Origin: Candidatus Latescibacterota bacterium
Lineage (GTDB): Bacteria; Latescibacterota; UBA2968; UBA8231
Length of the DNA stretch: 64,000 nucleotides
Reading direction: 5' to 3'
NCBI GenBank assembly: GCA_022827835.1
Contig: JAJEIO010000029.1
Coordinates: forward strand, 62,001 to 126,000
In this document: piece by piece, positions 1 through 4,202 of the stretch
Layout: the number at the start of each line of letters is the position of its first letter
How positions within the stretch are numbered: the first letter of the stretch is position 1
Translations under genes and position numbers: made by a program
The notes under the pieces: generated by a model
Seen by the model: only the letters and a program-made list of their open reading frames with translations
What the model was told of the DNA's origin: nothing
Database searches by the model: none

Positions 1-71
1 CGGATGTTCCAATTCTTGGCCGTAGCGGAAGCCTAGTCGTGGCTCTGCTATGTGTTGAAGTAACGAGTCTG

Positions 72-1766
72 TCATACCGCTTCTTCGTATTCGTCGTCTT
101 CATGGTCGAGAAGATCGTCAAAATCTGTTTCATCTAGGTCGCTGTCGAAATCGTCCAGAGCATCAGCCTCTGTTTCGTCTTCTACATTGTCTTCTTCGAC
201 TGTGGACACCGAGCCACTCTCAGTAATAGATAGAGGAGCCTCAAAGTCCATCGGAGAAGCGGCTATTGTCGCCACAGCGTCACCGCCAAGGGACAAGGAG
301 AGTTCCTCTTTGCCGTTCGCTAGGGTAGATACGAGAGCACGAAGCAGGTCGCGCCAACGGTCATTCCACCAATTCTTGCAGAAACTCTTTCGTAGCCGAT
401 CAGCGTGGGATTGGCTATCAAGCGGCGTCTTGCCATCCTTGGTGAAGACGACGTGAGTACGCAATAGAAGGTGCTGTGGATTATAGATATTCATCTTGCC
501 TGACACCGCAAAGTGCCAATAGACACCTCTTTTCTTGCTGTGGCCAACTAACCGGCGTCGGCGTCTATTGCCGTTCTCATCTTGAAAAGTGGCAATGTTC
601 CCTTCGATCAGATCAAGGGGGACGAACCACGCGCTTCCATGTGCAAACTCATAAAGCAATAGACCCTGACTCCGTGCGAACTGCTCCCATGCTTGGCGTA
701 GAAGTCTGGTTACTATGTTTCGAGCATCCCGCCGCGAGACTTGTGGCTTGTTGGTCTTCTGACCATCGAGGAATTGTACCAATGAAACAGGATAAGCGTC
801 CTCAAGTGGAATATCGGGAGTCTCCATTTGAAGCGCAGCCGCATCAGCAAAGCTGACGGCTAGCCGCATATAAGAGGCTGTGGGACTTTGAAATTCATTA
901 AATGCAAGCTCCATAGCCTCCTGTGACGCATTGAAACGAGAAAAATAGATATGAGATGGTAGGGAGCTGATTTGAAACCAATTAGAGAATACTGAATCCG
1001 GTGTGTCAGAGATAGAAGCACTTTGCCGCAGTTTAAACTTCTGCCAAGCGGCCAAGGCTTCACCAAAGTCGCTAGTCGATTGCGGAATCTGGCTGTCTTT
1101 GAGAGCCTTCAAAAGCTGGCTGAATCCGTCCGCCCAGTTATGAGAGAAGTCGATAGCGTTTAGACGGATCAACTGTTCGGGAAAGTCAGAGAACGGAAGA
1201 TCATCAAGGCGGATAGGTATGACGAATTGTTGCTTGTTGAGTTGCCTGCCTGTGTTCACAGCAAGAGCAATCTCGTCAAGGACGCCATCTTTCTGATAGG
1301 ACGCATGGGATAAAGCAACGATAACCACAGTAGCCTCTTCCTTGATCACCGTACCAATATCTCGCCAGAATGGCTCGCCACCCTTCAGATTGAGCACATC
1401 TGTCCATGCCTCATAGCCAGCAGCAGTCAATCGCGTACCAAGCCAAGAGGCAAATTCGTTGTCTTCGGGATTGGCGTGACTGATGAAGACAAGATGTCGT
1501 TCGGCTTCTTGGGGTCGGTGAGGTTTATAGGCATCCTCAATGCCGAGCCAGATGCTTGCGTCAACGCCTAGTACTTTCTCGAACTGTCGTGCCGTCTCCG
1601 GCTCAAGAGGAGCTTTTCCAGAGACGATTTCGCTAATCAGCTTGGGAGAGCACCCACAAAGCCGGGCAAACTCGGCTTGCGAGATACCTTGTACCTCGAG
1701 ACGCTCCTCCAAAACCCAACCCGGCGGGACAGCGTAGTCCGGCCGGTACTGATTGGTCGTCGCCAT
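72..1766 (-). CDS. HigA-type antitoxin fused to a TIR domain and a large C-terminal region
   Basis: Residues about 14-80 form a HigA/XRE helix-turn-helix, with the typical SQAEFARLCGCS recognition segment and an SIWLGIE end. A TIR domain follows at about 91-222: it opens with LVFISHANPED, and E165 in LDEIALA sits where TIR NAD-cleaving enzymes carry their catalytic glutamate. Residues about 230-500 form a domain I do not recognise. The last 55 residues are almost entirely Asp and Glu. The start is supported by a strong AGGAGAGAGG Shine-Dalgarno. The gene lies 14 bases downstream of a HigB toxin, the normal HigBA order. Ordinary HigA proteins are about 90-130 residues, so this 564-residue fusion is unusual. 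By inference the HTH represses the operon and neutralises HigB, while the TIR part may deplete NAD or signal when triggered. The domain calls are firm; the function is not known. Confidence 0.88.
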   Translation of the reverse strand: MATTNQYRPDYAVPPGWVLEERLEVQGISQAEFARLCGCSPKLISEIVSGKAPLEPETARQFEKVLGVDASIWLGIEDAYKPHRPQEAERHLVFISHANPEDNEFASWLGTRLTAAGYEAWTDVLNLKGGEPFWRDIGTVIKEEATVVIVALSHASYQKDGVLDEIALAVNTGRQLNKQQFVIPIRLDDLPFSDFPEQLIRLNAIDFSHNWADGFSQLLKALKDSQIPQSTSDFGEALAAWQKFKLRQSASISDTPDSVFSNWFQISSLPSHIYFSRFNASQEAMELAFNEFQSPTASYMRLAVSFADAAALQMETPDIPLEDAYPVSLVQFLDGQKTNKPQVSRRDARNIVTRLLRQAWEQFARSQGLLLYEFAHGSAWFVPLDLIEGNIATFQDENGNRRRRRLVGHSKKRGVYWHFAVSGKMNIYNPQHLLLRTHVVFTKDGKTPLDSQSHADRLRKSFCKNWWNDRWRDLLRALVSTLANGKEELSLSLGGDAVATIAASPMDFEAPLSITESGSVSTVEEDNVEDETEADALDDFDSDLDETDFDDLLDHEDDEYEEAV

Positions 1767-1780
1767 ACCTCTCTCCTAAG

Positions 1781-2116
1781 TCAGTGATAGTCAATCACAT
1801 CAACAATCGTGATTGCAGTTACCTTTTCCGTGTCAATCCCTCCGTCAGCTTTGCGTGGGAGCGGATCGTGATTAGCCCTGAATACCAACCTATAGGGATG
1901 GACGAGATCAACGGCATATTGCTCATTGCGATCACCTCGAAGCTGATGCCTCCGATCTGGTGGGGTCGTAGGCACCTGAGCTAACGTCGGGGCAGCCCTT
2001 AACACAGCGAGACGAATCTTGATCGTCCTTGCCATGCGGGGACCATACGCCCTCTCAAGTCCGCTAGCTGAGTTGAATTGTTTCTCGATTTTACGATTCC
2101 GAAAGGCGATATCCAA
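1781..2116 (-). CDS. higB: HigB-family (RelE/ParE fold) toxin
   Basis: This is a 111-residue protein of the RelE/ParE superfamily, HigB branch. Family features are the start DIAFRNRKIEKQF, the central YGPRMARTIKIRL helix, the basic PPDRRHQLRGDR strand and the YRLVFRAN strand. HigB toxins are ribosome-associated mRNA endonucleases that are inhibited by HigA. The most plausible start is a TTG at 2116, since no in-frame ATG lies nearby, so translation may be weak. It is the first gene of a two-gene unit, with the HigA-TIR fusion starting 14 bases downstream. Compared with common HigB proteins it carries an insertion near residues 85-100. Being paired with a TIR-bearing antitoxin is the unusual point. 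Confidence 0.85.
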   Translation of the reverse strand: MDIAFRNRKIEKQFNSASGLERAYGPRMARTIKIRLAVLRAAPTLAQVPTTPPDRRHQLRGDRNEQYAVDLVHPYRLVFRANHDPLPRKADGGIDTEKVTAITIVDVIDYH

Positions 2117-2175
2117 TGCTCTGTCTCAGCTTGACGAGTTATTATTATGTTATGGAATTAATCAGAGGAAGCAAA

Positions 2176-2430
2176 TCAACCATGAAGACGCCACAGCCTG
2201 ACTCGATCATCGCTGCAATGTATCAACCATTTTTCGATATTTGAAACCGCTGTTGAATCAACTGCCGACTCTTCGCCCTCAACTTCAAGCCAGAGTGCGA
2301 TTGCCTCTTCCATCCGTTCGAGCAACTGGTCTATTGACTTGCCTTGGGTATGACAGCCCGGAAGGCCGGGGACACTTCCAACGTAATAACCGTCTTCATC
2401 TTTCTCGATGACGATAGTGTATTCAGTCAT
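2176..2430 (-). CDS. HicB-like antitoxin
   Basis: An 84-residue protein with the HicB partial RNase H-like fold. The start TEYTIVIEKDEDGYYVGSVP and the GCHTQGKSIDQLLERMEEAI segment are diagnostic. The start at 2430 is chosen over a longer frame because a GGGAGAA ribosome site lies just upstream and the protein then begins at the family's usual first strand. HicB proteins neutralise the HicA mRNA interferase. No HicA gene is visible on either side, so this may be a solitary antitoxin or a regulatory relic. Its start overlaps the end of a broken XRE fragment. The C-terminal 25 residues (EKWLIHCSDDRVRLWRLHG) do not resemble a normal HicB tail and may be out-of-frame sequence. Confidence 0.75.
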   Translation of the reverse strand: MTEYTIVIEKDEDGYYVGSVPGLPGCHTQGKSIDQLLERMEEAIALWLEVEGEESAVDSTAVSNIEKWLIHCSDDRVRLWRLHG

Positions 2431-2626
2431 TGGATTCTCCCATAGTGCAGCATGAGTTGCCGATACCCAAGGCCCCGACGACTTCCTTGATTCGAGCGAG
2501 ACGGGCCGAAGCATAGTCCGTAGCCTCGTACCGCTGTATCTGTTGCTCTTTCAGTCCGAGGCGTTCAGCTAGCTCTTTTTGGCTCAGTCCTTGGGCGATT
2601 CGTGCTTTGATTTGAGCCAGATATTC
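2423..2626 (-). pseudogene. N-terminally truncated XRE-family HTH regulator fragment
   Basis: Reading the minus strand from 2626 gives EYLAQIKARIAQGLSQKELA, then ERLGLKEQQIQRYEATDYAS, then LARIKEVVGALGI, ending at a TGA at 2425-2423. This is the C-terminal HTH of a common XRE antitoxin family in which an N-terminal helical region of some 60 residues normally precedes EYLAQIKARIA. Here the codon just before the first Glu is the TGA stop of the PIN-domain gene, and no start codon is available. The N-terminal half is therefore missing. The end overlaps the HicB start by 8 bases. It reads as a remnant left when neighbouring toxin-antitoxin modules were joined. Confidence 0.7.
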
Positions 2627-3058
2627 TCAAAACGCCTCGGGAAGTACGGTAAAGCCTTCTCGATAGCCCACGTCACACAGGCGTTGATCGAACGACACAA
2701 AGCCCTGTCCTGTTGTGAGCCCTTGACACCACAGGATGGCGGCGGCCAGTTGCAACGCATCCGCTGCCCGCAACGGATGCACGGCCAGTAACCGCTCGGC
2801 CGTACTGCGCAACGCCTCACTCGGCTGCATCTCAGTCCAAGTTTGCATCAGGGTGTGCAATATGTGGCGAGCGGCGCGTTCGTCAGCAGGTGCCAAGCTA
2901 CCCTCTCGTACTTGGCGCATCAGGGCAGAAATACACTCAGTGCGCGTGCCCCACCAAACGACCATGGAAGGATCCTCGACGAGGATATCTTGTACCGTAG
3001 TCGAGTTAGGCTCCTGCACACACAGCGGTACCACAGCCGATGTATCCCAGAATTTCAC
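2627..3058 (-). CDS. vapC: VapC-like PIN-domain ribonuclease toxin
   Basis: A 143-residue PIN domain. The expected acidic residues are visible: D5 in FWDTSAVV, E41 in TECISAL, D100 in RAADALQLA and D124 in SFDQRL; these bind the metal in VapC toxins. A GTG at 3058 is taken as the start because it overlaps the antitoxin stop as GTGA; an upstream in-frame ATG would add 25 non-family residues. VapC proteins are Mg-dependent endoribonucleases that cleave tRNA or rRNA and are held inactive by their antitoxin. The stop codon directly abuts a broken XRE gene, which marks a recombination junction. Confidence 0.87.
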   Translation of the reverse strand: MKFWDTSAVVPLCVQEPNSTTVQDILVEDPSMVVWWGTRTECISALMRQVREGSLAPADERAARHILHTLMQTWTEMQPSEALRSTAERLLAVHPLRAADALQLAAAILWCQGLTTGQGFVSFDQRLCDVGYREGFTVLPEAF

Positions 3059-3345
3059 CAGCCTTCCTCCCGCTCGCGCAAGACTGCCGAACGCACGGTT
3101 GCCTGGGGGTCGGCAGGACGCGGCAGATTCCAAAAGTCCTCGGGTAAGGACTTCTCTCCGCGCTTGAGGAGACCCTTTTCTTCTAGATCTCTCAAGTGCT
3201 CAGGGAGGGGCACAGGACTGGCGAGGGGCAGCAAACGAGCAATGGGACGGCCATGCTCAGTGATCACCACCTCTTCACCGGCTTTGACTTGACGCAAGTA
3301 GGCGCTCAACGACATTTTGAGTTGTGATACCGTAGTAGTCTGCAT
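3055..3345 (-). CDS. vapB: Phd/YefM-type (VapB) antitoxin
   Basis: A 96-residue antitoxin. The N-terminal half (TVSQLKMSLSAYLRQVKAGEEVVITEHGRPIARL) is the Phd/YefM DNA-binding fold found in many VapB partners of PIN toxins; the Pro- and Glu-rich C-terminal half would wrap around the toxin. It is followed, with a GTGA overlap, by the PIN toxin. Antitoxins of this type normally repress their own promoter. The upstream 148 bases are AT-rich and are the likely operator and promoter region, though I see no clean palindrome there. Confidence 0.87.
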   Translation of the reverse strand: MQTTTVSQLKMSLSAYLRQVKAGEEVVITEHGRPIARLLPLASPVPLPEHLRDLEEKGLLKRGEKSLPEDFWNLPRPADPQATVRSAVLREREEGW

Positions 3346-3493
3346 GGAATAGCCTTTCTAGTTAATATATTCAGACTAATGTAGTCCATATCGTACTGTT
3401 GGGCAATTTCTCACGGTGTATCAACGACGAGTAAAAGATGTTGCTGGTGGCGAAAGACGCTGGCTCGATAGCTACCAAATCATCAAGACGCTG

Positions 3494-3892
3494 CTAAAAA
3501 ATTTCTGGAAGGGCCGCTCGCAGCCACGTTAAGACCTCCTCAGCCGCTTGCCGCGCTTCCTTGGCATCGTCTTCAGTAGGGGTAAACGCATCGCCTGGAT
3601 AGCGAATTTCTACGCCATAAGGCATCAGGAGGGAGAGTGCATCGCGGAGCTGTTCGGCATTGGCATGAATTGGAAGCACATATTGCAGTAACAGCAGCAG
3701 ATCGTGTGTAAAAGGATGGGGATGCCCGTTACCTACGAGGAATGCCTTGAGCATTTTCTCGGCGGCCTGCTGGCAGTGAAAACATACCGTATCTAACGGG
3801 ACCTGCTCGGCATTGAGGTTGTTGTCGGCATTGAGGAGATCGTTTTGGCCCTTAGCCAGCCACTGGCGGGCAAGTTCAGTCTCGGCGGACAT
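3494..3892 (-). CDS. HEPN-domain protein, toxin partner of MNT
   Basis: A 132-residue all-helical HEPN protein. The segment CFHCQQAAEKMLKAFL followed by HPFTHDLLLLL is the core of the COG2250-type HEPN family. The start at 3892 lies inside the 3' end of the nucleotidyltransferase gene (17-base overlap), which implies translational coupling. In HEPN/MNT modules the HEPN protein is usually an RNase toxin and the MNT protein blocks it, in characterised cases by adding AMP groups. I do not see a canonical RX4-6H ribonuclease motif here, so its catalytic activity is uncertain and it could instead serve as a scaffold for the transferase. Confidence 0.83.
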   Translation of the reverse strand: MSAETELARQWLAKGQNDLLNADNNLNAEQVPLDTVCFHCQQAAEKMLKAFLVGNGHPHPFTHDLLLLLQYVLPIHANAEQLRDALSLLMPYGVEIRYPGDAFTPTEDDAKEARQAAEEVLTWLRAALPEIF

Positions 3893-4202
3893 AGACGGTT
3901 TTGCCCTCGCGTAGCGCAGTGGAAACAAAAGAAAGAGGCGACTGTTGGCCTTTTTCTATTTCGTCCGGGGTATATACCAGCAAGTCCATGCCGAATGGGT
4001 ATGGGCGTAGCGATTTATAGAGGGCGCGGCTGCGCTTGAAGCGCGGCAGGTCGCTTGGGGCGATCACGAGTAAATCGACGTCGCTGTGCTCGGTAGCCTC
4101 GCCTCGGGCATAGGAGCCGAATAGAATGACCTGCTCGGCGTCTGCCTGGCGACCAATGCGTTCGGCGACGCGCCGTATCTCTTGCTCTCCGATTTTATTC
4201 AT
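3876..4202 (-). CDS. MNT-type minimal nucleotidyltransferase antitoxin
   Basis: A 108-residue DNA-polymerase-beta-like nucleotidyltransferase. G29-S30 begin the GSYARGEATEHSDVDLLV signature, and D41 and D43 are the metal-binding pair. The size is right for a minimal nucleotidyltransferase. It is the first gene of the pair with the HEPN protein and overlaps it by 17 bases. Characterised MNT antitoxins inactivate HEPN toxins by AMPylation of a tyrosine; by analogy this protein would guard the HEPN protein. It belongs to the toxin-antitoxin island filling the first 4.2 kb. Confidence 0.87.
   Translation of the reverse strand: MNKIGEQEIRRVAERIGRQADAEQVILFGSYARGEATEHSDVDLLVIAPSDLPRFKRSRALYKSLRPYPFGMDLLVYTPDEIEKGQQSPLSFVSTALREGKTVYVRRD

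Follow-up and report, generated by a model that had tools for sequence, protein, structure and literature searches.

A HigA-type antitoxin domain fused to the TIR-APAZ subunit of SPARTA, next to a HigB toxin gene, in Candidatus Latescibacterota

Introduction

At one end of a 64,000-nucleotide stretch of a Candidatus Latescibacterota genome (the window; G000:C46:62001-126000), a gene for a HigB toxin is followed by a gene whose product starts with a HigA-type HTH and runs on into a TIR domain. Is this a toxin-antitoxin (TA) pair, a defence system, or a merger of both? Previous studies indicate that N-terminal additions to TIR-APAZ proteins are known in kind, such as PD-(D/E)XK (PMC2743648), and that pAgo operons can include lambda-repressor-like HTH domains, which also occur fused to long-B pAgos (PMC6299218). 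Our literature search on APAZ with HigB or HTH turned up no TIR-APAZ that carries a HigA antitoxin domain and is accompanied by its HigB. SPARTA is structurally well studied; as to how cells keep or police so costly a suicide system, a natural antitoxin-effector fusion allows one to ask by experiment whether Argonaute systems are guarded by toxins in the way that CRISPR-Cas is guarded by CreTA.

Assignment of the operon core to SPARTA

The fused gene forms a single unbroken frame of 564 codons that begins 14 nt after higB (Table 1). Its product matches HTH_3 at residues 21-71 (E 2.7e-8) and TIR_2 at residues 93-219 (E 1.9e-21), so that the HTH, the TIR domain with E165, the large domain, and the acidic tail named in the preliminary description indeed lie in one protein. 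The HTH matches HigA structures with E-values of 9e-9 to 1.6e-5, and residues 13-80 match the HigA model TIGR02607 with an E-value of 7.6e-11 at 41.7 bits, under the cut-off of 47.7. The large domain had been called unknown; the domain is there, and by its profile match it is APAZ. The PADLOC profile Aga_TIR-PNTD1-PNTD2 (PDLC02403) aligns at positions 1-437 of 443 with residues 89-536 (E 2e-145), and residues 90-547 match the TIR-APAZ chains of SPARTA in the PDB, including 8qlo and 8fex (best E 1e-66). E165 aligns with E77 of MapSPARTA, the catalytic residue of that protein, E77A being the catalytic mutant (PMC10474274).

The predicted structure of the fused protein matches the solved SPARTA TIR-APAZ chains (Foldseek: 8i88, 8qlo), and the NAD-binding fold of the TIR domain, proposed earlier as a check, is present in the model. 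The single-chain model has a pTM of 0.55, with an uncertain HTH-TIR orientation, and connects the HTH to the TIR domain by a short linker. The pLDDT falls below 50 at residues 517-528 and 531-564; acidic tails are also present in unfused TIR-APAZ relatives. The stretch of the fused gene from codon 19 to the TIR domain contains no in-frame ATG, GTG, or TTG, so the TIR domain can be made solely as a fusion. The small stand-alone antitoxin typical of HigBA is thus replaced here by an obligatory fusion of 564 aa.

Only the first 25 codons of the pAgo gene lie in the window. The complete gene (505 aa) was located in the left-flank locus fetched from the same genome, L006:10558-12075 (G000:C46:60558-62075), and it overlaps the end of the fused gene by 4 nt, the ATG of the one and the TGA of the other being combined in ATGA. 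The protein matches PADLOC pAgo_I (PDLC02378) over residues 6-505 (E 6e-214) and the SPARTA Ago 8ifk at full length (E 6e-134). The APAZ profile match and the adjoining short pAgo gene identify the operon core, on sequence grounds, as SPARTA, a known defence system, and not as a new TIR system: a TIR-APAZ protein, a short pAgo in the same operon, and the catalytic Glu of the TIR domain are all found, in the order higB - [HigA HTH-TIR-APAZ] - pAgo. Both a free-standing TA module and a new TIR system are rejected on the strength of the APAZ match and the adjoining pAgo gene. The earlier reading of a HigB paired with a TIR-fused antitoxin therefore holds for the HigA-type HTH-TIR protein with its catalytic Glu and for the defence context, but not for a free-standing pair with an NADase antitoxin; the protein is a standard SPARTA subunit, for which pAgo would supply the trigger.

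Table 1. Positions of the operon and of adjacent TA-like genes in the window
Feature	Position	Strand	Remarks
Short pAgo gene, first 25 codons in window	1..75	-	PADLOC pAgo_I PDLC02378; SPARTA Ago 8ifk
Fused gene, HigA-type HTH + TIR + APAZ + acidic tail (564 aa)	72..1766	-	
Acidic tail (predicted disordered), residues 516-564, plus stop	72..221	-	pLDDT <50
APAZ region, residues 231-515	222..1076	-	PADLOC PDLC02403; Foldseek 8i88, 8qlo
TIR domain, residues 89-230	1077..1502	-	PF13676; E165 = E77 of MapSPARTA
Catalytic E165 of TIR (codon)	1272-1274	-	
HigA-type HTH antitoxin domain, residues 1-88	1503..1766	-	HigA structures 2icp, 4mcx, 6chv
HigB-family toxin (111 aa, TTG start)	1781..2116	-	H57, D109, Y110, H111 conserved
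60-nt leader, left end of block common to three fusion genomes	2117..2176	-	100% / 90% identity
HicB-like antitoxin	2176-2430		
PIN toxin + Phd/YefM antitoxin	2627-3345		
HEPN + nucleotidyltransferase	3494-4202		

The HigB toxin and its antitoxin partner

The Pfam score of the window's HigB itself is 19.3, below the gathering score of 27; HigB-like_toxin (PF05015) is matched by 11 of the 12 aligned family members, with a best E-value of 1.2e-8. The family profile matches chain 6f8s, which is annotated as a "putative killer protein" and which we take to be GraT (E 3e-6). The best structural match of the toxin model (pLDDT 93) is ribosome-bound HigB of P. vulgaris (4w4g, TM 0.80). A deeper alignment shows no variation at H57 or in the terminal D109-Y110-H111, and the terminal residues correspond to P. 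vulgaris Y91 and H92, which, according to the structure titles, are altered in solved variants. The family matches to HigB-like_toxin, the profile match to 6f8s, and the model match to 4w4g rule out a chance ORF.

The catalytic residues are intact in two of the three genomes that carry the fusion (G000, the window's genome, and G010), and the third gene (G003) is frameshifted. In the latter (locus L036), higB has a one-base deletion near codon 74 and the fused HTH is intact; the deletion is either real decay or a MAG error. Elsewhere in G000, the HTH matches are weak (31-37%) and there is just one further HigB-like match, a distant one (31%), which leaves the fused HTH as the only close partner of HigB.

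Distribution and single origin of the fusion

HigB and the HTH-TIR-APAZ fusion are present in 3/11 genomes of the genus, with identical junctions in independent assemblies. The two further genomes, represented by RKRN01000245 and JAJEFJ010000103 with 87-88% identity, are both Candidatus Latescibacterota MAGs. The HigB/HTH-TIR junction described earlier is thus real, and the proposed check on homologues showed a HigB gene adjoining 3/3 fusions, one of them frameshifted. The DNA block common to the three genomes starts at window position 2176, 60 nt before higB, spans higB, the fused gene, and pAgo, and extends into a restriction-modification (RM) gene. An assembly chimera is ruled out by the same junction in three assemblies and by its presence on a 381-kb contig. 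The fusion-bearing genomes are a few marine Latescibacterota, so far of one genus only.

Phylogenetic analysis of 45 TIR-APAZ proteins placed the three fused ones in a single clade (support 100/99) nested among unfused SPARTAs of Latescibacteria (L056), Binatia (L055), and Rhodothermales (L057, L058), and we conclude that the capture happened once; the pAgo tree agrees on the fused clade with weaker support (94/39). A scan across genomes with two peptide motifs, in which distant SPARTAs are under-sampled, gave about 58 SPARTA loci, and of these only the two fusion loci have the HTH or a HigB within about 5 kb. No further HTH-TIR-APAZ was found among these loci or in plasmid or phage records, and none in 386 sampled genomes of another group; a viral scan returned no TIR-APAZ.

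The genome of the unfused sister G007, a single contig, contains the same SPARTA and RM genes and gave no HigB match. That G007 arose from the fusion by deletion is not supported, as its TIR-APAZ gene has a start of its own with a Shine-Dalgarno-like site and branches outside the fused clade, although the PIN gene upstream of it in G007 is truncated at that point.

Donor family and loss of the operator

In other Latescibacterota, HigB proteins 56-71% identical to that of the window accompany HTH domains 72-78% identical to the fused one and joined to Peptidase_M78; the closest pair found is on a viral contig (HigB 80%, HTH 81% identical). The donor of HigB and the HTH is therefore likely to be the HigB/HigA-M78 module family. 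These modules (L039, L040, L113/L128) resemble the fusion in HigB (56-80%) and the HTH (72-81%), but they carry a C-terminal Peptidase_M78 instead of TIR-APAZ and, unlike the fused operons, retain an operator.

At the close donor loci, a palindrome of the TTACC/GGTAA type lies within about 45 nt before higB. It is absent from the fused operons, including the 60-nt leader; upstream of higB, neither G000 nor G003 showed any palindrome, and an operator search across the fused locus gave matches at or near chance level. The palindromic operator before higB that marks HigBA operons is accordingly present in the close donors and missing in the fused operons. In the DNA-binding core of the HTH, all three fusions carry R36L and R39C, both arginines being invariant in seven donors. 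In contrast to this core, the N- and C-terminal parts of the HTH are almost unchanged at donor-invariant sites, and these parts correspond by position to the toxin-binding surface of GraA (PMC6393540). The retained ends, the lost operator, and the two changed arginines together fit retention of the HTH for toxin binding rather than for autoregulation.

Conversely, the HTH might repress its own operon, as a SPARTA sensor or autoregulator, with HigB being a co-repressor or a leftover. HigA proteins do repress their own operons (PMC6987408), the 60-nt leader is conserved, and the fused HTH keeps S29 and R35, which align with conserved DNA-contact residues of PaHigA (PMC6987408), so that it may still bind another DNA site. 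Given that the donor palindrome has gone from the fused operons, with none before higB in G000 or G003, and that R36 and R39 have changed, we regard such a regulatory role as unlikely.

Selection and recombination

In the HTH, synonymous change exceeds non-synonymous change per site in all three pairs (p 0.04, 0.009, and 0.006), and by this pattern the domain is under purifying selection. In HigB, 10 synonymous and 5 non-synonymous changes separate G000 from G003 over codons 1-72, and between G000 and G010 the gene shows 3 and 5, respectively, too few to judge constraint. Synonymous divergence is lower in HigB+HTH (6/142 sites) than in TIR+pAgo (66/446 sites; p 4e-4), which suggests that the HigB/HTH end was probably exchanged by recombination.

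This low divergence, suggestive of a recent event, also bears on the idea that recombination simply brought SPARTA under the control of the promoter and start codon of higB, with the HTH being tolerated baggage and HigB decaying. The HigB frameshift in G003 and the restriction of the fusion to three genomes agree with it, but the excess of synonymous change that each pair shows in the HTH, the intact catalytic residues of two HigBs, and the presence of an intact toxin that has no other close antitoxin make it quite improbable.

A proposed model in which HigB guards SPARTA

We favour, by a slight margin over even chances, the interpretation that a SPARTA operon captured a HigB/HigA-M78 toxin gene with its antitoxin domain, and that the HTH, as the only cognate antitoxin of HigB, addicts the cell to intact SPARTA. 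By homology, the pAgo/TIR-APAZ heterodimer would be guided to invader DNA, and the TIR domains would tetramerise and destroy NAD+ at the E165 active site. By the precedent of GraA/GraT, the HTH would complex HigB and so deny it access to the ribosome. Since the antitoxin here belongs to a SPARTA subunit, a cell in which SPARTA is lost, misfolded, or shut off would lose the antitoxin too, and the freed HigB would stop translation, so that the toxin would guard the defence system. The joint absence of HigB and the HTH in the unfused sister G007 counts for addiction, and the retention of the HTH in G003 despite its frameshifted HigB counts against it. There are precedents for such dependence: a C-terminal extension of HigA underlies chaperone addiction in TAC modules (PMC5105189), and CreTA toxins guard CRISPR-Cas (PMC9458426, PMC10097628).

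The preliminary description had envisaged two combined outputs, RNA cleavage by HigB and NAD loss by TIR, which is one option among several. In its SPARTA version, HigB would sit on HTH dimers of resting SPARTA and be ejected by TIR tetramerisation, so that mRNA cleavage and NAD+ loss occur together with pAgo as the trigger. The catalytic residues of HigB and TIR are both kept in G000 and G010, and SPARTA activation turns the TIR domains by about 180 degrees (PMC10474274), to which the HTH is tied by a short linker. However, we saw no sign that HigB binding depends on the state of SPARTA, and the fusion is kept in G003 despite the frameshifted HigB; this mechanism therefore seems rather unlikely, and the data fit better an HTH antitoxin that ties HigB to SPARTA integrity. 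Stated more broadly, the locus may encode a toxin-guarded Argonaute, in which a domain built into SPARTA alone restrains HigB. The mRNA-cleaving toxin would be released when SPARTA is sabotaged or lost (addiction) or when it is activated (ejection), adding a second layer to abortive infection; we give this tentative proposal slightly less than an even chance.

Comparison with known systems

SPARTA and HigBA are each known; what is new, as far as we found, is the capture of HigB and the fusion of a HigA HTH to TIR-APAZ. The earlier statement that no named system has this form agrees with our finding no published description of the arrangement, but not with its core, which is the known SPARTA. 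The locus shares with MapSPARTA, CrtSPARTA, and BabAgo/TIR-APAZ the order of TIR-APAZ and short pAgo with a 4-nt overlap, the catalytic Glu, and an end-to-end match to the solved chains, and it adds the N-terminal HTH and the upstream higB. With HigBA type II TA modules, including GraTA, it shares the toxin-first order, a toxin of HigB/RelE fold with the C-terminal DYH, and a HigA-type HTH; here, however, the antitoxin is a SPARTA subunit and the donor operator palindrome is lost. In TAC modules, which combine HigBA with a SecB-like chaperone (PMC5105189), a C-terminal extension of HigA likewise makes toxin control depend on another protein, but the extension is a chaperone-addiction peptide and not a defence effector. 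In CreTA (PMC9458426, PMC10097628), the toxin is silent only while the defence system is intact, as we propose here, although CreTA uses an RNA toxin and CRISPR repression instead of a protein toxin and a fused antitoxin domain.

If the proposal is true, this would be, as far as we found, the first case of a TA module joined covalently to a pAgo defence system, and two abortive-infection effectors would meet in one protein. The unfused sister, the donor family, and the single gain make a defined evolutionary step available.

Neighbouring genes and other TIR-APAZ variants

A type ISP/IIG RM gene (L006:7223-10567, on G000:C46) is convergent with pAgo. This gene adjoins the same SPARTA in four Latescibacterota genomes, fused or unfused, and is not next to SPARTA at the other scanned loci. 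On the other side, TA-like genes lie beside the operon at window positions 2176-4202 (Table 1). When the APAZ region (window 222-1076) was compared with loci L036 and L037, its dS between G000 and G010 was about 0.4, against about 0.16 in the flanking TIR or pAgo, and by this higher dS the region may be mosaic or recombining.

In three Pseudomonadota loci (L065, L071, and L077), the N-terminus of TIR-APAZ is extended by about 180 aa of unrelated sequence, with a motif around DLR.sPrF..G.lnR; two of the three were scanned against Pfam and gave no match for the extension, possibly the REase-like domain described by Makarova 2009. In a Rhodothermales MAG, TIR-APAZ and pAgo are set apart by about 4 kb of inserted DNA that bears a transposase (L057:6407-10456).
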